Positions 6,070 to 58,229 of a DNA stretch of 64,000 nucleotides are shown one piece after another. The notes beneath the pieces are model-generated. The model saw only the letters and a program-made list of their open reading frames with translations. It was not told the DNA's origin and made no database searches. Position 1 is the first letter of the stretch. Each line of letters begins with the position of its first letter. This DNA comes from Halobacteriales archaeon QS_9_68_17 (lineage in GTDB: Archaea > Halobacteriota > Halobacteria > Halobacteriales > Natronoarchaeaceae). Position numbers and translations under genes: made by a program. Where the stretch lies: positions 1 through 64,000 of the forward strand of contig PXSA01000040.1 in assembly GCA_003023565.1 (NCBI GenBank), given 5' to 3'.

Positions 6070-8301
6070 ATGGGTACCTGTATCATCTGCGGTACGCCCA
6101 CGGACGGGCGGATCTGCAGTAGCCATGAAGAAGACGTCGCTTTCGAATTCAGAGGCGACAGCGCGGACGAACTGACCCCGGGCCGCTACTACCGCGGCAC
6201 CGTCGACGGCTTCGCCGACTTCGGCGTCTTCGTCGACATCGGCGACAGCGTCACCGGCCTGCTACACAAGAGCGAACTCGACCAGCGGCTCGACAGCCTC
6301 GACTGGGACTCCGGCGACACCGTCTACGCGCAAGTGACGGACGTCCGGGACAACGGCAACGTGGACCTCGGCTGGTCCATACGTCAGTCAGAGGACAAGT
6401 TCCGCGGGTCGCTGGTCGACGACCCGAACGCCGACGCGCCGGAGGCGAGCGCGGCGGGAAATGAAGACGCGGTCGCAGAGCCCTCGGGGGGCGGTGCGGC
6501 CGCGGCGAGCGCGAGCGCGGTGACGACGGAAACGGTCGAAGGGCCGGAAGCCGTCGAGGAGTCGGAAGAGACCGCCGAGGAGCCCGAGGAGACCGAGGAG
6601 ACGGTCGACGAGACCGACCCCTCGCGTGTCGCTATCGGGACGCTCTCGGACCGCGTCGGCGACGTCGTCCGCATCGAGGGCGAGATCACCGGCGTGCGCC
6701 AGACCAGCGGCCCCACCGTCTTCGAACTCAGCGACGAAACGAGCGCCATCGAGTGCGCCGCCTTCGAGGAGGCCGGCGTCCGCGCGTACCCCGGGGTCGA
6801 CGTCAACGACTACGTTCGGCTGGAGGGCGAAGTCGAACTCCGCCGCGACGAGTTGCAGGTCGAGACGGAGTCCCTCGTCGTCCTCGACGGCGAGGACGCC
6901 GAGGCTGTCGAGGATCGGTTGACGGCCGCGATGACGGACAAAGCGCGACCCGACGAGGTCGAGACCCTCGCCGACAGCGAGGCGCTACGCGCCTCGGGCG
7001 ACCGGACGCAGTCCGGTGACGACGACCCCGCGGCGGTCGTCGAGAGCGAGGTTCGCGACGCCGCCGAGGCGATCCGCCGGGCCGTCTTCGAGGCCCGCCC
7101 CGTCGTCGTGCGTCACAGCGCCACCGCCGACGGCTACGCCGCCGGCGCGGCGATAGAGCGCGCCGTCCTGCCGCTGGTCCGCGAGGAACACGTGAAGGCC
7201 GACGCCGAGTACCACTACTTCGAGCGTCGCCCGCTCGACGGCGAAGTGTACGACATGGACGCCGCGACGAACGACGTCACCCGGATGCTGGAGGCGCGCG
7301 AGCGCCACGGCGAGCAACTGCCGCTCGTCGTCCTCGTCGACGCGGGGAGCACGCTGGAGTCCCGCGACGGCTACCGCCTGCTCGACCTCTACGGCGCGGG
7401 CCGCGTCGCCGTCGACGCCAGCCACCCCGACGAGGCCATCGTCGACGAGGTCGACACCGTCGTCAACCCCAGCCTCGCCGACGAGGGCGAGGGTGACGGC
7501 ATCACCACCACGGCACTGGCCGCGAACGTCGCCGCGAACGTCCGCGAGGACGTCCGCGACGACCTCCGCCACCTCCCCGCCGTGAGCTACTGGACGGACG
7601 CCCCCGAGCAGTACGTCGACCTCGCCGAGGCGGCGGGCTACGACGAGACTGCCGTCCGCGAGCGTCGGGAAGCCATCGCGCTGGAGGCGTACTACCAGTC
7701 CTACGACGACAAGCGCGAACTCGTCGCCGACCTACTGTTCGGCGACACCGACGCGCCCGGCGACGCCGAGTCGCTGGCCGCACACGTCAGCGAGCAGTTC
7801 CGCGAGAAGCTCGACACCGAGGTCGAGACGGCCGACCGGAACCTCTCGCTGCGCGGCGAGAACGGCATCACCTTCGCGGTGCTCGACACCGACTCGTTCA
7901 CTCACCGCTTCGACTTCCCCCCGACGACGCTGCTGCTCGACGAACTCCACCGCCGCCGCGAGGACGGTCGTAGATCGCAGCGCGATTTACGAGCCAGTCA
8001 GAACGCGGAGCGTTCTGACGACGCCGTCGGAACTCGTTCCGACGAGTCCCCGCTCGACGATGCTCGCGAGGACGCCGACGAGCCGTTCGTCACCCTCGGC
8101 GTCGGCGACGACGAGCTCCACCTCCGCAGCACCGCCCCCGTCGACGTCCGCGCGGTCGGCGAAACCGCGCGCGAACACGCCGACGAGGCCGGTATCGCCG
8201 TCGTAGGTGGCCGCGACGGTCACCTCGAGTTCCTCACGGGCGAGCGCGACGCCGTCATCGACGGCGTGGTCGCCGCCGTGGCCGAGGAACTGGGCGAGTA
8301 G
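6070..8301 (+). CDS. S1/OB-fold and DHH-family phosphoesterase (RecJ-like) with N-terminal zinc ribbon
   Basis: CIICGTPTDGRICSSH zinc ribbon, S1 domain GRYYRGTVDGFADFGVFVDIGDSVTGLLHKSEL, OB domain, DHH-like RHSATADGYAAGAAIERAV. Confidence 0.88.
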   Translation: MGTCIICGTPTDGRICSSHEEDVAFEFRGDSADELTPGRYYRGTVDGFADFGVFVDIGDSVTGLLHKSELDQRLDSLDWDSGDTVYAQVTDVRDNGNVDLGWSIRQSEDKFRGSLVDDPNADAPEASAAGNEDAVAEPSGGGAAAASASAVTTETVEGPEAVEESEETAEEPEETEETVDETDPSRVAIGTLSDRVGDVVRIEGEITGVRQTSGPTVFELSDETSAIECAAFEEAGVRAYPGVDVNDYVRLEGEVELRRDELQVETESLVVLDGEDAEAVEDRLTAAMTDKARPDEVETLADSEALRASGDRTQSGDDDPAAVVESEVRDAAEAIRRAVFEARPVVVRHSATADGYAAGAAIERAVLPLVREEHVKADAEYHYFERRPLDGEVYDMDAATNDVTRMLEARERHGEQLPLVVLVDAGSTLESRDGYRLLDLYGAGRVAVDASHPDEAIVDEVDTVVNPSLADEGEGDGITTTALAANVAANVREDVRDDLRHLPAVSYWTDAPEQYVDLAEAAGYDETAVRERREAIALEAYYQSYDDKRELVADLLFGDTDAPGDAESLAAHVSEQFREKLDTEVETADRNLSLRGENGITFAVLDTDSFTHRFDFPPTTLLLDELHRRREDGRRSQRDLRASQNAERSDDAVGTRSDESPLDDAREDADEPFVTLGVGDDELHLRSTAPVDVRAVGETAREHADEAGIAVVGGRDGHLEFLTGERDAVIDGVVAAVAEELGE

Positions 8302-8397: not shown

Positions 8398-10101
8398 ATG
8401 AGTACCGAGTCGGACGCCACGGAGTCCGAGGCGTTCAAGCGGGTCTGCGAGGAGCTGATCGACCGCATCCTCGCGGGCGAACTGGAGCGCGACGACGTCG
8501 AGTCAGCGAAGCTGGACGTCTGTTCGGAGCACTCCTCGCCGAAGGTGCCGAAGAACTCCGAGATCCTCGATCACGCGCCGCAGGAGCGCCGCGAGGAGCT
8601 CGAATCGGTGCTGCGGCGCAAACCGGTGCGGACGGCGTCGGGCGTCTCGCCCGTCGCCATCATGACCAGCCCGCACAACTGTCCCCACGGGAAGTGCCTG
8701 TACTGCCCGGGCGGTCCCGACTCGGAGTTCTCCAGTTCGCAGAGCTACACGGGCAACGAGCCGGCCGCCGCCCGCGGCGTGCAGAACGACTACGACCCGT
8801 ACGGGCAGGTCCGCCTCCGACTGGAACAGCTCCGGGAGATCGGCCACCCGGTCGACAAGGTCGAACTCATCCTGATGGGCGGGACGATGACCGCGCGGAG
8901 CCACGACTACCAGGAGTGGTTCGTCAAGCGCGCCCTGCAGGCGATGAACGAGTACGACGTGGACGGGGAGCCGGAACCGGCCGAGGGCGAGAGCTTCGCG
9001 CAGGACCCCGAGGAGTACGACTTCGAGTACGTCGAGGACGTTATCGCCCGCAACGAGACCGCGGACGTCCGCGACATCGGGACGACGTTCGAGACGAAGC
9101 CCGACTGGTGCGACCGGGAGCAGATAGACCGGATGCTTCGCCTCGGCGGGACGAAGGTCGAGGTCGGCGTCCAGACGACGTTCGAGCGTATCAACCGCGA
9201 GATGCACCGCGGCCACGGCGCGCAGGCCTCCATCGACGCGAACCGCCGCCTCCGCGATGCCGCGTTCAAGGTCGGCTTCCACATGATGCCCGGCCAGCCC
9301 GGCATGACGAAGGAGATGTGCCTGGAGGACTTCCGCCGCCTCTTCGAGGACGAGAAATGGAGGCCCGACTACCTGAAGATATACCCCACTCTCGTCGTCC
9401 GGGGCACGCGGACCTACGACATGTGGCACGATGGCGAGTACGACCCGCTCACCAACGAGGAGGCGGCCGAACTCGTCGCCGAGATCAAGTCGATGATCCC
9501 GAAGTACACGCGCCTCCAGCGCGTCCAGCGGGACATCCCCGCGGACTTCATCGACGCCGGCGTCTGGAAGTCCAACCTCCGGCAGCTCGCCAGACAGAAG
9601 ATGGCGGACCACGGCTGGACCTGCGACTGCATCCGCTGTCGCGAGGTCGGCATGAACGACCAAGCGCCGGGGGACGTGGAACTCGACGTGATGACCTACG
9701 AGGCCGCGGGCGGCACGGAGCACTTCATCAGCTACGAGGACCCGGACAACGACCTGCTGGTCGGCTTCTGCCGCCTGCGGTTCCCCGGAAACCCTCAGCG
9801 CGCGGAACTGCGGGACGCCGCGCTCGTCCGCGAACTCCACGTGTACGGGCCGATGGTCGAAGTCAGCGAGGCGCGAAGCGCCTCGGAGACATCGAGCGGC
9901 GACGAGCCGCGAGACGGCGACGAGAGCTACGACTGGCAGCACAAGGGGTACGGCCGGACACTGCTCCGGAAGGCCGAAGCGCTCGCCGCCGACGCCGGCT
10001 ACGAGACGGTGAGCGTCATCAGCGGTATCGGCGCGCGGGAGTACTACCGGGAGCAGCTGGGCTATCACCAGGACGGGCCGTACGTGAGCAAGCGGCTGTA
10101 A
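8398..10101 (+). CDS. tRNA uridine(34) 5-carboxymethylaminomethyl modification radical SAM/GNAT enzyme Elp3
   Basis: CPHGKCLYCPGGP radical SAM motif, GGTMTARSHDYQEWFVKRAL, C-terminal GNAT domain. Confidence 0.93.
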   Translation: MSTESDATESEAFKRVCEELIDRILAGELERDDVESAKLDVCSEHSSPKVPKNSEILDHAPQERREELESVLRRKPVRTASGVSPVAIMTSPHNCPHGKCLYCPGGPDSEFSSSQSYTGNEPAAARGVQNDYDPYGQVRLRLEQLREIGHPVDKVELILMGGTMTARSHDYQEWFVKRALQAMNEYDVDGEPEPAEGESFAQDPEEYDFEYVEDVIARNETADVRDIGTTFETKPDWCDREQIDRMLRLGGTKVEVGVQTTFERINREMHRGHGAQASIDANRRLRDAAFKVGFHMMPGQPGMTKEMCLEDFRRLFEDEKWRPDYLKIYPTLVVRGTRTYDMWHDGEYDPLTNEEAAELVAEIKSMIPKYTRLQRVQRDIPADFIDAGVWKSNLRQLARQKMADHGWTCDCIRCREVGMNDQAPGDVELDVMTYEAAGGTEHFISYEDPDNDLLVGFCRLRFPGNPQRAELRDAALVRELHVYGPMVEVSEARSASETSSGDEPRDGDESYDWQHKGYGRTLLRKAEALAADAGYETVSVISGIGAREYYREQLGYHQDGPYVSKRL

Positions 10102-11779: not shown

Positions 11780-13930
11780 ATGGACCAGAAGCGGGAACTG
11801 ACGAGCGTCGACCTCGCGGCGCTCGTCGGCGAACTCGGCAGTTACGAAGGGGCCAAACTCGACAAGGCCTACCTCTACGGCGACGGCTTCCTGCGGCTCA
11901 AGACCCGGGACTTCGACCGCGGGCGGGTGGAGCTACTGGTGGAGGTCGGCGACGTCAAGCGCGCGCACGTCGCGGACCCCGGGAACGTGCCGGACGCGCC
12001 CGGACGGCCGCCGAACTTCGCGATGATGCTGCGGAACCGCCTCTCGGGGGCGGACTTCGCGGGCGTCGAGCAGTTCGGCTTCGACCGGATCCTCCAGTTC
12101 CACTTCGAGCGCGAGGACGAGGACACGACGATCGTCGCGGAGCTGTTCGGGCCGGGCAACATCGCCGTGCTGGACGCCAACGACGAGGTGGTCGACTCGC
12201 TGGACACCGTCCGCCTGAAGTCCCGGACGGTCGCGCCCGGGTCGCAGTACGAGTTCCCGGACACGCGGGTGAACCCCCTCGACGTGGACTACGAGGCGTT
12301 CGCGGGGCTGATGGACGAGTCCGACACCGACATCGTCCGGACGCTGGCGACCCAGCTAAACCTCGGCGGCATCTACGCCGAGGAGGTCTGTACCCGCGCC
12401 GGCATCGAGAAGACCACCGACATCGCCGACGCCACGGACGACCAGTATCGGGCGGTCTTCGACGCGATAGAGCGCCTCCGCGCGGAACTGGAGAACGCCG
12501 AACTCGACCCGCGGGTCTACGTCGAGGGCGACCGATACGTCGACGTGACGCCGTTCCCGCTCTCTGAGTACGAGGGCCGCGAAGCGCGAAGCGCCGCGGG
12601 GAGTCGGTCGGAAACCGACGGGATCCACAGCGAGTCCTACGACACGTTCAACGCCGCGCTGGACGAGTACTTCTACGAACTCGACCGCTCCGACGACGAG
12701 GACGAGGTCGTCACCGACGACTCGCCGGACTTCGAGAACGAGATAGAGAAGAAGCGACGCATCATCGAACAGCAGGAGAGCGCCATCGAGGGGTTCGAGC
12801 GGCAGGCCGAGCAGGAGCGCGAGCGCGCGGAACTACTGTACGAGCGCTACGGACTGGTCGACGACGTGCTCTCGACGATCCAGGACGCCCGAAGCCGGGA
12901 CACGCCGTGGGACGGGATCGAGGAGCGCTTCGAGGAGGGAGCCGAGCGCGGCATCGAGGCGGCCGAGGCCGTCGTCGGCGTGAACGGCGACGAGGGGACC
13001 GTGACGGTCCGCCTCGACGGCACGGACGTCGAACTCGACGCGAGCGAGGGCGTCGAGCACAACGCCGACCGCCTCTACACCGAGGCCAAGCGCGTCGAGG
13101 AGAAAAAGGAGGGCGCGCTGGCCGCTATCGAGAACACCCGCGAGGAGTTGGAGGGAGTCAGAGAGCGCAAGCGCCAGTGGGAAGAGCGCGGCCCCGAAGA
13201 CGGGGACGAGGGCGAGGCGGACGAGGAGACCGAGAACGTCGACTGGCTCTCCCGGCCCTCGATCCCGGTTCGCCGTTCCGAGCAGTGGTTCGAGCGGTTC
13301 CGCTGGTTCTACACGAGCGACGACTTCCTCGTCATCGGCGGCCGCGACGCCGACCAGAACGAGGAACTCGTCAAGAAGTACCTCGAACCCGGCGACCTGT
13401 TCTTCCACGCGCAGGCCCACGGCGGCCCCGTCACCGTGGTCAAGGCCACCGGGCCGAGCGAGTCGGCGAAGGACGTGGCGATCCCGCAGCAGAGCAAGGA
13501 GGAGGCCGCGCGGTTCGCCGTCTCGTACTCCTCGGTGTGGAAGGACGGCCGCTTCGCCGGCGACGCGTACATGGTGACGCCGGACCAGGTGAGCAAGACG
13601 CCCGAGAGCGGCGAGTTCCTGGAGAAGGGCGGCTTCGCGATCCGCGGCGACCGAACGTACTTCCGGGACGTGGCGGTCGGCGTGGCCGTCGGTATCACCT
13701 GCGAGCCGTCGACCCGGGTCGTCGGCGGCCCGCCGTCGGCCGTTCGCGACCAGGCCGAGACGCATATCGAGGTCGAACCCGGCCAGTTCGCGCAGGCAGA
13801 TGCCGGGAAGAAGCTCTACCGCGAGTTCCGGGAGCGCTTCGCCGACACCTCCTTCGTCCGGAAGGTGGCCAGTCCCGACCGGATCCAGCACTTCCTGCCG
13901 CCGGGCGGCAGCCGGATCGAAGGGGACTGA
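11780..13930 (+). CDS. NFACT-family ribosome quality control protein RqcH
   Basis: MDQKRELTSVDLAALVGELGSYEGAKLDKAYLYGDGFLRLK...FRWFYTSDDFLVIGGRDADQNEELVKKYLEPGDLFFHAQ. Confidence 0.93.
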   Translation: MDQKRELTSVDLAALVGELGSYEGAKLDKAYLYGDGFLRLKTRDFDRGRVELLVEVGDVKRAHVADPGNVPDAPGRPPNFAMMLRNRLSGADFAGVEQFGFDRILQFHFEREDEDTTIVAELFGPGNIAVLDANDEVVDSLDTVRLKSRTVAPGSQYEFPDTRVNPLDVDYEAFAGLMDESDTDIVRTLATQLNLGGIYAEEVCTRAGIEKTTDIADATDDQYRAVFDAIERLRAELENAELDPRVYVEGDRYVDVTPFPLSEYEGREARSAAGSRSETDGIHSESYDTFNAALDEYFYELDRSDDEDEVVTDDSPDFENEIEKKRRIIEQQESAIEGFERQAEQERERAELLYERYGLVDDVLSTIQDARSRDTPWDGIEERFEEGAERGIEAAEAVVGVNGDEGTVTVRLDGTDVELDASEGVEHNADRLYTEAKRVEEKKEGALAAIENTREELEGVRERKRQWEERGPEDGDEGEADEETENVDWLSRPSIPVRRSEQWFERFRWFYTSDDFLVIGGRDADQNEELVKKYLEPGDLFFHAQAHGGPVTVVKATGPSESAKDVAIPQQSKEEAARFAVSYSSVWKDGRFAGDAYMVTPDQVSKTPESGEFLEKGGFAIRGDRTYFRDVAVGVAVGITCEPSTRVVGGPPSAVRDQAETHIEVEPGQFAQADAGKKLYREFRERFADTSFVRKVASPDRIQHFLPPGGSRIEGD

Positions 13931-23611: not shown

Positions 23612-24355
23612 ATGGCTCGCGCCCCTTGGGAGCGTATGGGACCGTCGCTACTGTCCATGGAATGGCGCGACCTCCTGTTCGCGCACTACCCGGTCGCGCC
23701 GGAGCGCCTCCGCGCGCGACTGCCCGAGCGCGTCTCGGTCGACACCTACGAGGGACAGGCGTGGCTCGGCGTCGTCGCGCTCACGATGGGCGACGTGCGG
23801 CCGCGGTTCGCCCCGTTCGGCCGCACGTTCCCGCAGGTCAACCTCCGCACGTACGTCACGATAGACGGGGACCCGGGCGTCTACTTCCTCAGCATGGACG
23901 CCGACGACCGACTGGCGGTCACCGCCGGTCGCCGAGCGCTCGGCGTCCCGTACTTCGTCGCGGACACGTCTCTCAGTCGGCGGGGCGCGGAGGTCCGCTT
24001 CGAGAGCGAGCGGACCCACGCCGGAGCGGCCGACGCGACGTTCCGCGCCACGTACGGCCCCGACGGGACCCCCGACCCCGTCCGCTCGGGGACGCTGGAG
24101 GAGTTCGCTATCGACCGCTACCGGTTCTACCTCCCCGGTCGAGACGCCATCTACACGGGAGTTCTGGACCACGACCCGTGGACGCTCCGGACGGCGTCGG
24201 TGACCGTCGACGAGAACACGCTGTTCGCGGCGAGCGACATCGGTCGCCCCGCGGCGGAGCCGCGCTGTCACGTCGCGCCCGCCAAAGCGGTGACGCTCGG
24301 CGACATCGGGCGGCGGGCCGAAGCGGAACCGCGGCAGGAACCGGTCCGGATCTAG
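23612..24355 (+). CDS. YqjF-like DUF2071 family protein
   Basis: MEWRDLLFAHYPVAPERLRARLPERVSVDTYEGQAWLGVVALTM. Confidence 0.8.
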   Translation: MARAPWERMGPSLLSMEWRDLLFAHYPVAPERLRARLPERVSVDTYEGQAWLGVVALTMGDVRPRFAPFGRTFPQVNLRTYVTIDGDPGVYFLSMDADDRLAVTAGRRALGVPYFVADTSLSRRGAEVRFESERTHAGAADATFRATYGPDGTPDPVRSGTLEEFAIDRYRFYLPGRDAIYTGVLDHDPWTLRTASVTVDENTLFAASDIGRPAAEPRCHVAPAKAVTLGDIGRRAEAEPRQEPVRI

Positions 24356-27099
24356 GACCGCGCCCACTCGACCATCCGGGCGTACGCGTCGTCCGTCGCG
24401 AGCGCGTCCGCGTCGCCGACGAGCACCAGCGACCGCTTGGCCCGCGTGAGCGCCACGTTCACACGACGGTAATCCTCGAAGACCGGGCCGTCGAGGTCGC
24501 CGCTGGCGACGAACGAGACGAGTATGACCTCCTTCGAGGAGCCCTGGAACCGGTCCACCGTGTCGACGGTGACCGCGTCGGGCACCCGTCGGGATATCTC
24601 CGCGACCTGCGCGCGGAACGGCGCGATGACGCCGATATCACCCCGTTCGACGCCCGCCGCGGCGAACGCCTCGACCGTCTCCGCGACCCGCTCGGCCTCG
24701 ACGGCGTCGGTGTGGCGCGACCCGTCGCCCGGCACGTCGATCATCGTCACGGGGTCCCGCAGGTGGTCCGGGAGCGCGCTCACGTCCGCTTCCGGGAGGT
24801 CCGAGAGGCGTTGGGCCGCCACCTCGCCGGTCGCGGGCCGGAGTTGGCCGTCGTAGAACTCCCGGGAGGCGTAGGCCTGAATCCGCTGGGCCATGCGGTA
24901 CTGGCGGTCGAGCATGACGCCGGCGTTCGGGTGCTCGTCGATGAGGCGCTCGAACAGCGACTCGGTGAGGTCGTTCTCGGCGCGGACGACGGGGGGCAAC
25001 TGCTCGTGGTCGCCGACGAGGACGAACCGGTCGGCGAGGTTGATGGCGGCAAGCGTCTCCGGCTCGGTCAACTGGGCCGCCTCGTCGACGACGGCCACGT
25101 CGAACGACTGCTCGCGCATCACCCGGGACCCGCAGGTGGCCGTCGTCGCGGCGACGACCGGGGCCTCGCGGAGTTCCCGGACGCGCTCGCCCGGGTCGCC
25201 GCGCTGTTCTAAGCGCACGTCCTGCATGTCCTCGCGGACGCCGGACTCGGTGCCGACTCGGAGAACGGCCTCGAAGTCCCGGTCCCGAACCGCCTCCAGC
25301 GCGTTGTCAACCGCGCGGTTGGTGAACGCCGACAGCAGGACGCGGTCGCCCCGTTCGACGAGCGCCCGGATCGTCCGGGCGATGGTGTACGTCTTGCCCG
25401 TCCCCGGCGGCCCGTGGACCAGCGCGAACTCCTCCGCGGCGACGGCCGTCGTCACGGCATCGTTCTGCGCCGCGTTGTTGTCGATGAACGTCTCGCTCAC
25501 GTCCCCGAACGCCGGGTCAGCCCGGTCGAACAGCACGTCCTTCCGGCGCTCGCTCCCTTTCAACAGGCCGTCGTGGAGCGCCGTGAGCATGCGGTCGGCG
25601 GAGAGCTCCGAGGGGTACACGTCGAGCCGACACAGGTCCACCGGTTCGTCGGCGCTGACGACGACTGCCTCGTCGAGTCGTTCGACGCGGGCCAGTTCGG
25701 CGTGTCCGTCGACGGGGTCGCCGTCGCTGGCCAGTACCACGTCGCCCTCGCGGATCTTCGAGACGGCGTAACCGGACTCCGTCTCGCTGCCCGACGAGCG
25801 TCGCTCGTCGACGTCGTCCGTGCGTTCGGCGCGGAGTTCCCACCGGCCGCCGTCGAGTTGCCGGCGGTCGGTCGGCTCCAGGTCTACGAGCGCGCGGTCG
25901 TCGTCGGCCCGCTCCTCGCCGGTCTGTTCCCACAGTTTCGCGTACTCGCGGTGGGTCTCGCGGCGCTCCTCCTCGATGGCGCGGTAGAACCGGTCGAAGT
26001 ACTCGCGCTCCTCAGCGGGGATCGCCCGGCCGATCCGTCCGGCCTTCGACTCCTGGTCGAGGCGGCCCGAGACCACCTGACAGGTGTCCTGCTCGAAGCA
26101 GTAGTCGCAGGTGGCGTCCGCCTCGTACCCGGTCGGCACGTCCATGTCGTGTTCCATCGCCGCGATCTCGTTGCGCGTGCGGACGACGAACTTCAGCAGC
26201 CCGTCGCCGACGGAGAACTCCTTTGCCGGCGAGAGGTCGCCGGTCGCCTCGGACCGGTCGAGCGCGGAGTTCTTCGTGTACAGCAGCGTCCCCGTGTCGG
26301 CGGGGACGCCCCGCTCCTGTAACAGGAGCGCGTAGCAGGCCGCCTGGATCTTGTCGTGGAACCGCGGCTCCCGCTTCGTGTTCTTCCCGGTCTTCAGTTC
26401 GACCGGCATCCCGCGACGGACCGCGTCGGCCCGACCCTTGATGCCGAACGTCTCGCTGATGAGCGTCTGCTCGCTGCGCCACTCGCTCTCCGCGGGCGCG
26501 AACGCCCGCTCCGAGGATTCGTCGGCAGCGGCCGACCTCTCCTGGTCCGTCAGCACGCCCTGGTTCAGCCAGCTCTCGATGGCCATCGCGTTCCGGCGGA
26601 CCTCCTCCTCGACCTCCTCGCGCGTCCGCCCGAGCAGGCCCAGTTCCAGCCCCGCCTCCTCGACGCGGTCCGGGATCGACTCGTCCAGGTCGCGCCCGCG
26701 GAGCAGGTCGCCGAACACCTCGTGGACGATGGTCCCCTTGACGACCGGGTACGCAAGCGGGATCCCCGAGAGCTTGTTCAGGTAGTACATCCGGGGGCAC
26801 TGCACCCACGAGCGGACGTCGGTCACGTCGACGAGGAAGTCCGGTTCGAGCACGACGTACGAGTCGCCGGTCGTGGCGTAGCCGCCGTCGTAGTCGTCTC
26901 GCTCCGCGTCGGTGACGAGTAGCTCCATCCCCGGTTCGACGAGTTCGGCCGTCGCCGTCCACTTCCCCCACAGCGTTACCGGCACCGGCTCCGCGCCCGC
27001 CGAGAGCCGGACCGGCACCTCCGCGAGGTCGCTCTCGCCGTACTGCGTCGAGACGGTTCGAACCTCGGCCGCGCCCGCGGCGGTTCCCCGAACGTTCAC
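24352..27099 (-). CDS. Dna2-like superfamily 1 helicase with N-terminal RecB/Cas4-type nuclease domain
   Basis: SWVQCPRMYYLNKLSGIPLAYPVVKGTIVHEVFGDLL, C-X2-C pair CDYCFEQDTC, Walker [19 protein letters not shown]. Confidence 0.88.
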   Translation of the reverse strand: MNVRGTAAGAAEVRTVSTQYGESDLAEVPVRLSAGAEPVPVTLWGKWTATAELVEPGMELLVTDAERDDYDGGYATTGDSYVVLEPDFLVDVTDVRSWVQCPRMYYLNKLSGIPLAYPVVKGTIVHEVFGDLLRGRDLDESIPDRVEEAGLELGLLGRTREEVEEEVRRNAMAIESWLNQGVLTDQERSAAADESSERAFAPAESEWRSEQTLISETFGIKGRADAVRRGMPVELKTGKNTKREPRFHDKIQAACYALLLQERGVPADTGTLLYTKNSALDRSEATGDLSPAKEFSVGDGLLKFVVRTRNEIAAMEHDMDVPTGYEADATCDYCFEQDTCQVVSGRLDQESKAGRIGRAIPAEEREYFDRFYRAIEEERRETHREYAKLWEQTGEERADDDRALVDLEPTDRRQLDGGRWELRAERTDDVDERRSSGSETESGYAVSKIREGDVVLASDGDPVDGHAELARVERLDEAVVVSADEPVDLCRLDVYPSELSADRMLTALHDGLLKGSERRKDVLFDRADPAFGDVSETFIDNNAAQNDAVTTAVAAEEFALVHGPPGTGKTYTIARTIRALVERGDRVLLSAFTNRAVDNALEAVRDRDFEAVLRVGTESGVREDMQDVRLEQRGDPGERVRELREAPVVAATTATCGSRVMREQSFDVAVVDEAAQLTEPETLAAINLADRFVLVGDHEQLPPVVRAENDLTESLFERLIDEHPNAGVMLDRQYRMAQRIQAYASREFYDGQLRPATGEVAAQRLSDLPEADVSALPDHLRDPVTMIDVPGDGSRHTDAVEAERVAETVEAFAAAGVERGDIGVIAPFRAQVAEISRRVPDAVTVDTVDRFQGSSKEVILVSFVASGDLDGPVFEDYRRVNVALTRAKRSLVLVGDADALATDDAYARMVEWARS

Positions 27100-40524: not shown

Positions 40525-41697
40525 ATGGAGCTATCCGACGAGCAACGCGCGGTCCGAGACGTGGTGCGGGAGTTCGCGGAGGAGGAGATCCGCCCGCTGG
40601 CGCGCGAAGCGGACGAGACGCAGTCGTTCCCCGAGGAAGCGTGGGACGGCCTCGCCGACCTCGATCTCACCGGCCTGACGGTTCCCGAGGAGTACGGCGG
40701 CTACGACGCCGACCGGCTGACCTACAGCGTGGTGAACGAGCAGGTCGCCTACGGCATGCTCTCGGTCGCCACCGCGCTCTCGGTCCACTGCCTCGCGACC
40801 TCCTGTATCGCGACGTTCGGGAGCGAGGACCAGAAGGCGCGCTGGCTGCCGGAGATGGTCGACGGCCGCCCGGTCGGCGCGTTCGCGCTCTCGGAACCCG
40901 AGGCCGGATCGAACCCGGCCGAGATGACCACCGAGGCTCGCAGAGAGGGCGACGAGTACGTCATCGACGGCGACAAGCAGTGGATCACGAACGGCGAGCG
41001 CGCGGGCGTCGTCATCGTCTTCGCCAAGACCGACCGCGACGACCCGAACAGCGTCACGCAGTTCCTCGTCCCGAAAGACGCCGCCGAGGAACCCTCGGCG
41101 AGCAGCCGGACTGCGTCCGGCGACGCCGACGGACCGCAGGTCGGCAAGAAGGAGGACAAACTCGGCCTGCGCGCCAGCGACACCACGTCGCTCAGCTTCG
41201 ACGGCGTGCGGATCCCCGTCGAGAACCGCCTGACTGAGGAGGGGAAGGGGATGAGCGCCGCTCTCTCGATCCTCACCGGCGGCCGGATCGGCATTGCATC
41301 GCAGGCCGTCGGTCTCGCCCAGTCGGCGCTCGACGAGGCGGTCGACTACGCCGGCGAGCGCGAGCAGTTCGGCAAGCCGGTCGGCGACATCCAGACGATC
41401 CGGCACAAACTCGCCGACATGGGGACGCAGGTGCGGGCGAGCCGCCTGCTGACGCGGGACGCCGCCGCCCGCGAGGACCGCGGCGACGACGTGCGCATGG
41501 CTGCGAGCATGGCGAAGTACTTCGCCAGCGAGGCCGCGATGGACGTGACCAACGAGGCGGTCCAGATCCACGGCGGCTACGGCTACGTCACCGAGGGCGA
41601 CGTCGAGCGGCTCTACCGCGACGCGAAGATCACCACTATCTACGAGGGCACCAGCGAGGTCCAGAAGACGGTGATCGCCCGCGAAATGCTGGAGTAG
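40525..41697 (+). CDS. Acyl-CoA dehydrogenase
   Basis: MELSDEQRAVRDVVREFAEEEIRPLAREADE...ALSEPEAGSNPAEM...IHGGYGYVTEGDVERLYRDAKITTIYEGTSEVQ. Confidence 0.95.
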   Translation: MELSDEQRAVRDVVREFAEEEIRPLAREADETQSFPEEAWDGLADLDLTGLTVPEEYGGYDADRLTYSVVNEQVAYGMLSVATALSVHCLATSCIATFGSEDQKARWLPEMVDGRPVGAFALSEPEAGSNPAEMTTEARREGDEYVIDGDKQWITNGERAGVVIVFAKTDRDDPNSVTQFLVPKDAAEEPSASSRTASGDADGPQVGKKEDKLGLRASDTTSLSFDGVRIPVENRLTEEGKGMSAALSILTGGRIGIASQAVGLAQSALDEAVDYAGEREQFGKPVGDIQTIRHKLADMGTQVRASRLLTRDAAAREDRGDDVRMAASMAKYFASEAAMDVTNEAVQIHGGYGYVTEGDVERLYRDAKITTIYEGTSEVQKTVIAREMLE

Positions 41698-54231: not shown

Positions 54232-54454
54232 GACGACCCGTACGGGCCGCGCGAAGTTATCTCCGACGGGTCGGACGCCGAGACGCAGGCCGCACTAACG
54301 GATAGCGAACAGACGGCCTGCGAGTCCGCGAGGGGGATCGCCGTACGCCCGCCTCGTCCGCCCTCGCGGCGATTCGTCAGTTCACGTCGGGTCTGGTCCC
54401 GGGTTGGGTGATAAACCTTCGGCTGCCAGTTGCCTACAGTAACCGACCGGCCGC

Positions 54455-54760
54455 GCTCGGATGCGCGACCGAAGTGAGCGCTCCGAGCGGACACCGGAAG
54501 ACGCTTCGCGCCTTCCGAGCTGCTTGCAAACGCGAAGCGTTTGCAGCATCACGAAACGGCTTCGCCGTTTCGGTCGACCTCCTTCGCTTCGCTCGGGAGG
54601 ACGGGGAAGGGCAGGCGCTAGGAGCGTGCCTCGGCGACCGCCGAGGCTCGCGCAAACTGGCGGCCCTGGTGTCTTCGCGAACGAAGTGAGCGAAGGCTCG
54701 GAGCGGCGAAGCCGCTCCGGTGGACATTGAAACGGCGACGAGATCGCTGCCAAGCGATTT
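54455..54760. repeat. Dense cluster of short GC-rich hairpins with GAA/TTC loops
   Basis: e.g. TGCAAACGC-GAA-GCGTTTGCA (54525-54545), CGAAACGGC-TTC-GCCGTTTCG (54552-54572), GCCTCGGC-GACC-GCCGAGGC (54628-54647), CGGAGCGGC-GAA-GCCGCTCCG (54699-54719). Confidence 0.9.
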
Positions 54761-54811
54761 CGAGGGCTTTCTTGGGCAAGGGCTTTGTCGGGCGGGAGTC
54801 AGGATCACGGT

Positions 54812-56713: not shown

Positions 56714-57865
56714 TCAGGCGACCTCGACCCACTCCCCGGACTCATCGCTCCGTGCGATGGCGTCCAACACCTCCTGAGCGGCGTAGCCCTCCTCGAAACC
56801 GGGCGTGAACTCGCCGTCGTTCTCTCCGGCGGTTGCGTCGCTTTCGCTTCGGGACGCCGTCGGCGTCTCGCCTGCCACCGCCGAGAGGAACTCGTAGTTC
56901 TCGTGGACGAACGTGTGCTCCCAGCCGATGACGTGGCCCGGCGGCCACCAGTGGTCGACGTAGGGGTCGTTCTCCTCGGTGACGAGGACCGTCTCGTAGC
57001 CGCGGTCGCCCTCCCGGTGGAGTTCGAGTTCGTTCAGTCGCTCCAGCGAGAACCGGAGGCTCCCCTCGGAGCCGTGGATCCCGATCCGGTTGTCGTTCTT
57101 GTGGCCGGTCGCGAACCGCGAGGCCTCGAACGTCCCCATCGCGCCGTTCTCGAACTCCGCCTGCGCGCTGTAGGCGTCGTCGACGGTCACCGGGCGTGTC
57201 TCGTTTTCCCCCTCGACGGGCCGCTCGTCGACGAACGTCTCCAGGTGGCCGGACACGCGCTCGATATCGCCGATGAGAAAGCGGGCGAGGTCGACCGTGT
57301 GCGACCCGAGGTCGCCGAGCGCGCCGCTGCCGGCCATCCCCTCGTCGTTGCGCCACGACCACGGTGCGTCGGGGTCGACGAGCCAGTCCTGCAGGTAGGT
57401 GCCGCGGAAGTGCCGTATCTCGCCGAGTTCGCCGGCGTCGATCAGGTTCCTCGCGTACCGGATCGCGGGGACGAAACGGTAGTTGAACGCACAGCCGGCG
57501 GGAACGCCGGCGTCGCGGGCGGCGTCGCGCATCTCGCGGGCCGACTCCAGCGTCGGCGCGAGCGGTTTCTCGCAGAACACGGGCGTGCCGGTGTCGAGCG
57601 CGGCGATAGCGGGTTCGGCGTGGACGTGGTTCGGCCCGAGGTTGTAGAAGACGTCGACCTCCTCGATCACGTCGCGCCAGTCCGTCGCCGTCCGGGAGAA
57701 GCCGAGGCGGTCCGCGGCGTCCGCGAGGGCGTCCTCGTCGCGGCCGACGATCACGTCGCGCTCGACGTCCGGCGCGTCCGGGAAGAACATCGGCAGGCGC
57801 GCCAGCGCGTTCGCGTGGGCCTTGCCCATGAACCGATACCCGAGTACGCCGACCTGTAGGCTCAT
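56714..57865 (-). CDS. Gfo/Idh/MocA family oxidoreductase
   Basis: MSLQVGVLGYRFMGKAHANALARL...YNLGPNHVHAEPAIAALDTGTPVFCEKPLAPTLESAREM. Confidence 0.92.
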   Translation of the reverse strand: MSLQVGVLGYRFMGKAHANALARLPMFFPDAPDVERDVIVGRDEDALADAADRLGFSRTATDWRDVIEEVDVFYNLGPNHVHAEPAIAALDTGTPVFCEKPLAPTLESAREMRDAARDAGVPAGCAFNYRFVPAIRYARNLIDAGELGEIRHFRGTYLQDWLVDPDAPWSWRNDEGMAGSGALGDLGSHTVDLARFLIGDIERVSGHLETFVDERPVEGENETRPVTVDDAYSAQAEFENGAMGTFEASRFATGHKNDNRIGIHGSEGSLRFSLERLNELELHREGDRGYETVLVTEENDPYVDHWWPPGHVIGWEHTFVHENYEFLSAVAGETPTASRSESDATAGENDGEFTPGFEEGYAAQEVLDAIARSDESGEWVEVA

Positions 57866-57966
57866 GGCCGTTGGTTCGGCAGGGCGGTCTTTCAGTGTTT
57901 CCCGACCGCTGCGGGGCCGTCGTTTCGACCGGCGCGTCCGGCGTCGGGGAGGACCGGAGCGAGGCG

Positions 57967-58229
57967 GTGACCCTCCGGCTGCGGCGCGAGGCGGCGGTCG
58001 ACGTGGACGCGGTCCGGCGGGCGATCCACCGGACGCGCCACGCGGAGTGGACCTCCGTCGGGTCCGTTCCGACGTGGAGCGACGGGACCGCGTCCGACTC
58101 AACACGCTGGAGGACGTGGTCGACGTCGCTGTCGACGGCGACGGGCGGGTCGTCCACGACGAGCGGTGGGACCTCTTCGCCGTGTTCGACGGGGACGTGG
58201 TCTACCACTACTGTCGGACCGGCGAGTGA
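57967..58229 (+). pseudogene. Small conserved haloarchaeal protein with single-base frameshift
   Basis: VTLRLRREAAVDVDAVRRAIHRTRHAE then, in another frame, VDLRRVRSDVERRDRVRLNTLEDVVDVAVDGDGRVVHDERWDLFAVFDGDVVYHYCRTGE*; duplicating G58047 restores one ORF. Confidence 0.6.

Follow-up and report, generated by a model that had tools for sequence, protein, structure and literature searches.

A two-hairpin palindromic repeat found in frame in unrelated protein genes of Halobacteriales

The window, a stretch of 64,000 nucleotides (C40:1-64000), belongs to a 2.88-Mb draft genome of 42 contigs (G000; 68% GC, 89% complete) and is syntenic with the congener G001, mostly at 81-93% DNA identity. The gene at 6070-8301 had been described in a sequence-only reading as a DHH/S1 protein. 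The S1 part held; Pfam DHH had no match in this protein at E<=0.001. The same reading had placed two hairpins in this gene, one in elp3 and one in an acyl-CoA dehydrogenase gene, and the coordinates and arms of all four (6978-6996, 7001-7017, 9867-9885 and 41105-41121) held exactly. It missed a second species-specific insertion, with two further hairpins, in the same S1/OB-fold gene. The features of the gene are as follows; types A and B are defined below.

6070..8301, plus strand: open reading frame of the S1/OB-fold protein, 743 aa (Pfam S1 at aa 37-100, OB-fold at aa 200-272)
6976..7020, plus strand: type B two-hairpin insertion, 45 nt, aa 303-317 (SEALRASGDRTQSGD); absent in 29 orthologues, with an empty site in the DNA of four congeners
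6978..6996, plus strand: hairpin 1, CGAGGCGC-TAC-GCGCCTCG; arms seen in the sequence, and folding
7001..7017, plus strand: hairpin 2, ACCGGAC-GCA-GTCCGGT; arms seen in the sequence, and folding
7966..8070, plus strand: second species-specific insertion, 105 nt (35 aa); absent in four congeners, boundary slides by a few nt

The 15 residues SEALRASGDRTQSGD were missing from 29 of 29 orthologues from other Halobacteriales genomes, four of them Halostella congeners, and the residues on both sides aligned. At the empty site, the congener DNA read ...CTCGCC/GACGACGAC... (the slash marks the site) or near variants, to which this genome adds 45 nt with GAC at each end; the repeated GAC lets the boundary slide to 6973-7017. 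The hairpins had been proposed to belong to a dispersed palindromic family that inserts in frame, a claim that orthologues of equal length without the palindrome would have refuted. No such orthologue was found, and the claim held, supported by the orthologue gaps and by the motif enrichment described below. The 105-nt insertion is located near the end of the gene, with hairpins at 7997-8019 and 8025-8044. It has CGCGAGGACG on each side, the longest flank repeat seen, which could be either a target duplication or a chance repeat.

Five further in-frame insertions were found in the window, together with a non-coding stretch of related hairpins:

9864..9914, plus strand: type A insertion in elp3 (8398-10101), 51 nt, encoding SEARSASETSSGDEPRD; empty site in four congeners
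12583..12627, plus strand: insertion in an NFACT-family gene (11780-13930; Pfam NFACT_N), 45 nt; gap in four congeners
25767..25811, minus strand: insertion in a Dna2-like helicase gene (24352-27099; Pfam Dna2, AAA_11 and AAA_12), 45 nt, reading DERRSSGSETESGY; empty site in three congeners
41077..41121, plus strand: type B insertion in the acyl-CoA dehydrogenase gene, 45 nt, inside Acyl-CoA_dh_M; empty site in three congeners
54468..54739, no strand assigned: non-coding stretch rich in related 3-nt-loop hairpins; mostly missing from congeners
56823..56873, minus strand: insertion in a GFO/IDH/MocA oxidoreductase gene (56714-58105; Pfam), 51 nt; empty site in two congeners

The elp3 insertion carries hairpins at 9867-9885 (CGAGGCGC-GAA-GCGCCTCG) and 9896-9910, and the acyl-CoA dehydrogenase insertion carries CGCCGAGG-AAC-CCTCGGCG (41082-41100) and GCCGGAC-TGC-GTCCGGC (41105-41121), with the flank repeat GACGCC. 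The hairpins of the NFACT-gene insertion are less regular, and the oxidoreductase insertion has one clear hairpin, GACGCCG/CGGCGTC. The host genes are unrelated. A check of position relative to domain boundaries, which had also been proposed, showed that insertion is not restricted to them: by Pfam, the elp3 insert lies inside the GNAT region and the acyl-CoA dehydrogenase insert inside the middle domain, and the insertion points include loops inside catalytic domains.

In the non-coding stretch, hairpins lie at 54525-54545, 54552-54572 and 54699-54719. A repeated, structured-looking non-coding sequence was observed at 54604-54772, at G000:C7:26782-26989 and in locus L131 upstream of its position 1501, with the motif order GGGAAGGGCAGGCGC...GAGCGTGC...CTCGCGC..ACTGGC...GACATTGAAAGGGCG...AAGGGCTTTCT and without a match in Rfam at the gathering score. 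Hairpin inserts distinguish its copies: a 59-nt two-hairpin element is present at C7:26904 and in L131, and none in the shorter relative at C7:30080. This sequence might be an undescribed haloarchaeal RNA or a repeat that hosts the elements.

Insertions in this genome relative to G001 were measured on two contigs, this one and a second of which a 240-kb stretch was covered to about two thirds. Their lengths peaked at 51 nt (six insertions), 45 nt (five) and 54 nt (two). In alignments of 16 sites, G001 always showed a clean gap, as did other congeners wherever their sequence was available, and the element was inserted cleanly, in whole codons, in otherwise conserved genes. A few insertions in this style are found in G001 itself and are missing from this genome. 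No regular target-site duplication was seen (the shared flank bases numbered 0-7, without a fixed length), nor were terminal inverted repeats found spanning the unit, and on both counts identity with a MITE was rejected. Separately, an 81-nt intergenic repeat at G000:C20:121797, with GTAGAAATTGAA-like ends, contains a long palindrome at its center (TCGAACGGCACCC/GGGTGCCGTTCGA); its site is empty in G001 and G002, and a similar intergenic repeat is present in G001 at the place matching window position 54301. This repeat may represent a separate MITE-like family.

The hairpins had been read as separate palindromes with common arms. That part was refined, since in this genome each of the 11 CGAGGCGC-N3-GCGCCTCG hairpins was followed by a second, different hairpin at near-fixed spacing, and therefore the real unit is the pair. 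One element of 45-54 nt consists of hairpin 1 (arms of about 8 bp, 3-nt loop), a short linker, hairpin 2 (arms of 5-7 bp, mostly a 3-nt loop) and a short tail. Type A (51-54 nt) reads AGCGAGGCGC-NNN-GCGCCTCG, a linker near GGNCNNN(T/G), CGA, then GCGGGC-NNN-GCCCGC and GAGA(AGA). Type B (45 nt), which includes the element at 6976-7020, reads (GAC)AGCGAGGGAC-GCA-GTCCCTCG, GGCA, ACCGGAC-GCA-GTCCGGT and GAC. When four elements were folded as single-stranded DNA, each formed the two hairpins and none of 200 shuffles folded as well, a computed result only. The bases before hairpin 1 have the consensus RYAG (ACAG, ATAG, GTAG, GCAG), with GTAG in only some copies. The loops GAA, GGA, GTA or GCA (or the complement) accounted for 29 of 90 long-stem 3-nt loops, compared to about 11 expected with equal base use; many copies have other loops, and a strict GNA-triloop rule was rejected in favor of a tendency. 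In an intergenic hairpin chain at G000:C37:120912-120985 (locus L106), a type B end runs directly into a type A element, which could mean that the hairpins are modular.

The motif CGAGGCGCNNNGCGCCTCG occurred 11 times in the 2.88-Mb genome and its reversed pattern not at all. The shorter motif CCGGACNNNGTCCGG, with nine occurrences and one for its control, is weaker evidence because several of the nine lie outside elements. In 490 kb of the genome, 90 perfect hairpins had a 3-nt loop and arms of 8 or more, compared to 37 expected from order-3 Markov sequence, and those with arms of at least 10 numbered 14 compared to 2; no excess of such hairpins was seen in congener stretches. Motifs no commoner than expected would also have counted against the proposed family, and what was found was strong enrichment, with the composite element spread order-wide. 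A referee may suggest chance palindromes of a GC-rich, codon-biased genome that overlap ordinary lineage-specific indels. In support of this, 68% GC and codon bias do make many short hairpins, as the 37 in the Markov controls demonstrate. Against it, the motif was present in 107 of 151 genomes and its reversed-pattern control in 0 of 151; the inserts are of fixed length with conserved linkers; the stems show compensatory changes; a covariance model of the element (below) found no matches in the same-family genomes G005 and G007; and the empty sites and the sequence common to unrelated genes contradict it. Chance is all but excluded.

To follow the stems between copies, 62 copies were aligned. 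In total, 95.7% of the pair cells were paired, both sides had changed in 9 of 14 pairs, and the covariation score was 0.258, compared to 0.058 when shuffled and at most 0.018 with partners slid. Because this alignment was fitted to the structure, the type B pattern search is the cleaner check: among about 20 matches with two mismatches, about 17 placed both in one base pair with pairing restored (counted from the listed matches). A type B twin in merA of a Natrinema zhouii plasmid, GACAGCGAGGGACGAGGTCCCTCGGGCAACCGGACACAGTCCGGTGAC, has hairpin 1 altered on both arms relative to the window copy. A common type A insertion in merA was found in four lineages with proteins about 82% identical. At this site, three of the four sequences show uncompensated changes in hairpin 1; pairing persists in hairpin 2, and the peptide is still hydrophilic. 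Pairing is thus kept between dispersed copies and not fully within a settled copy, as judged from this one merA site, and the uncompensated decay suggests that pairing matters for spread, not for the host. Among these plasmid-borne merA loci (L251-L256), those of Natrinema zhouii and Salinigranum also carry a type B element at a second site; many further haloarchaeal matches to merA are shorter by about 55-60 nt.

Covariation also bears on a local origin of the hairpins, in which replication or break repair at a small inverted repeat would create them through template switching or snap-back synthesis. Such synthesis would yield perfect arms and small loops and could homogenize the arms, giving compensatory-looking changes. 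However, neither arm is present at the empty sites, and unrelated genes, as well as other families, share the same linkers and arms. As the origin of the copies, in-place synthesis is already contradicted and is very improbable.

A covariance model was built from 12 copies, including the window copy, whose own match is therefore by construction. The model found 45 matches with E<0.01 in this genome and matches in 53 of 61 Halobacteriales genomes (0 to 53 per genome), and none in 123 genomes of the phylum outside Halobacteriales, which possibly have lower GC, for which no correction was made. The congeners G002-G004 have 5-8 copies each; from these counts, we infer that many copies were probably gained recently in this lineage. 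The type B pattern occurred in 18 of 201 genomes, and its reversed control matched once. The same element type was found in unrelated genes of different families, and on plasmids of Halorussus, Halobacterium, Natronococcus, Salinigranum, Natrinema, Haloplanus and Halorubrum. Non-coding copies also exist. No match was found in 50,697 phage records. A known structured RNA family was considered and rejected: Rfam returned nothing at the gathering score for the window or six loci.

A further possibility is a REP/BIME- or PATE-like origin, with the elements as remnants mobilized by a Y1 transposase (IS200/IS605 or RAYT) through recognition of single-stranded hairpins. The two-hairpin layout is in line with this, many copies start with GTAG or ATAG before hairpin 1, and the lack of a regular target duplication fits Y1 chemistry. 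On the other hand, the Y1 domain PF01797 was unmatched in this genome, G041 and G063, which have 41-53 copies (completeness 89% for this genome and 97-99% for G041 and G063), and it was present in the copy-free genomes G007, G016, G017, G058, G065 and G068. The IS200/IS605 or RAYT mechanism is therefore very unlikely.

Codon statistics, without use of the element itself, gave an inferred coding frame for each flank. For type A, 52 of 61 copies had both flanks in one same strand and frame (reading like SEARSASDRSSGRSPRE), none was in genes in the other five frames, and strict thresholds gave 39 of 39. For type B, the counts were 20 of 25 overall and 14 of 14 under strict thresholds, reading like DSEGRSPSGNRTQSGD, with none in genes in another frame. 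Annotated plasmid genes (merA in several genera, cobN twice and a mismatch-repair protein) agreed in strand and phase, as computed from coordinates. These counts are not all independent, since merA and some other copies share descent; many unrelated genes are nonetheless included. Each insert gives its host protein a hydrophilic stretch of 15-18 residues, as inferred by translation of an open frame without stops. When 51 coding-length elements were translated in six frames, the used frame proved stop-free, with hydrophobic residues at 1% and a mean net charge of -0.3. Net charge is about +4 in the other forward frames, of which one contains stops in 26 of the 51 elements; in the reverse frames, hydrophobic residues make up 22-27% and net charges run from +1.2 to +4.4. 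No other frame is at once stop-free, nearly without hydrophobic residues and close to neutral, and therefore purifying selection in an acidic halophilic proteome is a sufficient explanation.

The frame rule could also be taken as a sign of an adaptive linker, a peptide useful to halophilic proteins (flexibility, solubility, salt tuning) that is spread or retained by positive selection. The single reading frame and hydrophilic peptide speak for this, as does the merA insertion retained in plasmids of five genera (Halobacterium, Halorussus, Salinirubellus, Salinigranum and Natrinema). In other orthologues of these genes the insert is missing, however, and the hosts are unrelated; the DNA palindrome, not the peptide alone, is kept between copies, of which some are non-coding; and purifying selection alone can explain the frame. 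We consider an adaptive linker unlikely. A bolder reading is that these are clade-wide, undescribed coding mobile hairpins of Halobacteria whose insertion is itself strand- and frame-aware, through an unknown enzyme, possibly acting on mRNA or co-transcriptional single strands and reseeding host proteins with a single type of peptide. Frame-aware insertion is not ruled out; the reading as a whole is doubtful.

Clean whole-codon insertion, dispersal over unrelated genes, genomes and families, stem covariation, one coding orientation and frame, and loss of hairpin 1 pairing in an old copy at a single site are shown. The preferred reading, which we hold to be likely, is that each hairpin pair is a copy of a non-autonomous, probably selfish, mobile haloarchaeal repeat. 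A trans-acting factor would recognize the folded single strand (DNA or RNA), an inference made because the stems co-vary, and would copy or paste the unit into new sites; active copies would stay well paired and settled copies would decay. The one-frame rule would arise after insertion via purifying selection, with only the used frame giving a stop-free, Ser/Gly/Asp/Glu/Arg-rich, nearly uncharged and non-hydrophobic stretch that may be tolerated in a surface loop of an acidic halophilic protein. By inference, the insert most likely serves no useful function in the host protein. Mobility itself remains inferred: no enzyme has been identified and no copy has been caught moving, with one genome per species.

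The closest behavior is that of the Rickettsia palindromic elements (RPE; Ogata et al. 2000, 2002) and the Wolbachia coding palindromic repeats (Ogata et al. 2005), which sit in the reading frame of conserved protein genes, and in RNA genes as well, with a peptide that is tolerated and a palindrome lost with age (PMC2229807, PMC6649704, PMC2996958). Like these, the haloarchaeal repeat is in frame in protein genes, absent from orthologues and dispersed over unrelated genes, and loss of the palindrome with age was seen in one case, hairpin 1 at the merA site. RPE proper are described as 105-146 bp in size, with one long stem-loop, and are Rickettsia-specific, whereas the haloarchaeal element is 45-54 nt, GC-rich, with two adjacent hairpins, and occurs in many genera of one archaeal order. 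The coding palindromes of Methanocaldococcus jannaschii (Suyama et al. 2005; cited in PMC2229807, PMC2996958) are likewise archaeal palindromic repeats within protein genes; this species belongs to another phylum, outside the covariance-model search, and a sequence relation was not tested. REP/BIME and GTAG- or CGTC-tagged repeats are also small hairpins, often paired and some inside genes (PMC3733652), but they are mainly intergenic, repeats of the GTAG class are linked to RAYT (Y1) transposases (PMC3733652), which are absent from the copy-rich genomes here, and the haloarchaeal pairs are two different hairpins in one orientation.

Transposase-free mobile repeats are known from a haloarchaeon in the PATEs, MITEs and small mobile repeats of Haloquadratum (PMC3119063), where 80 bp is quoted as exceedingly short. 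In contrast to our element, those have near-terminal palindromes or terminal inverted repeats and are described as inserting chiefly into other mobile elements, and in-frame insertion was not seen in the relevant passages of PMC3119063. The absence of a Y1 transposase speaks against identity with PATEs, which are defined by near-terminal palindromes related to IS605-type transposons, without a direct sequence comparison. Nematomorph mitochondrial coding palindromes are perfect inverted repeats inside translated genes, but of up to 142 bp per arm and maintained in place rather than dispersed as insertions (PMC6649704). No earlier description of the haloarchaeal element was found in the open-access full text searched; subscription papers were outside that search.

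In-frame selfish palindromes were already known from Rickettsia, Wolbachia and one methanogen. The haloarchaeal family extends this behavior, at scale, to a class of archaea open to experiment: a single genome holds about 45 copies, and most of its relatives carry some. Comparison of copy-rich and copy-free genomes makes the mobilizer searchable, and the one-frame rule offers a clean test of selection versus frame-aware insertion. The elements show a repeated route by which proteins gain hydrophilic segments, and they may account for many of the species-specific insertions in haloarchaeal proteins.
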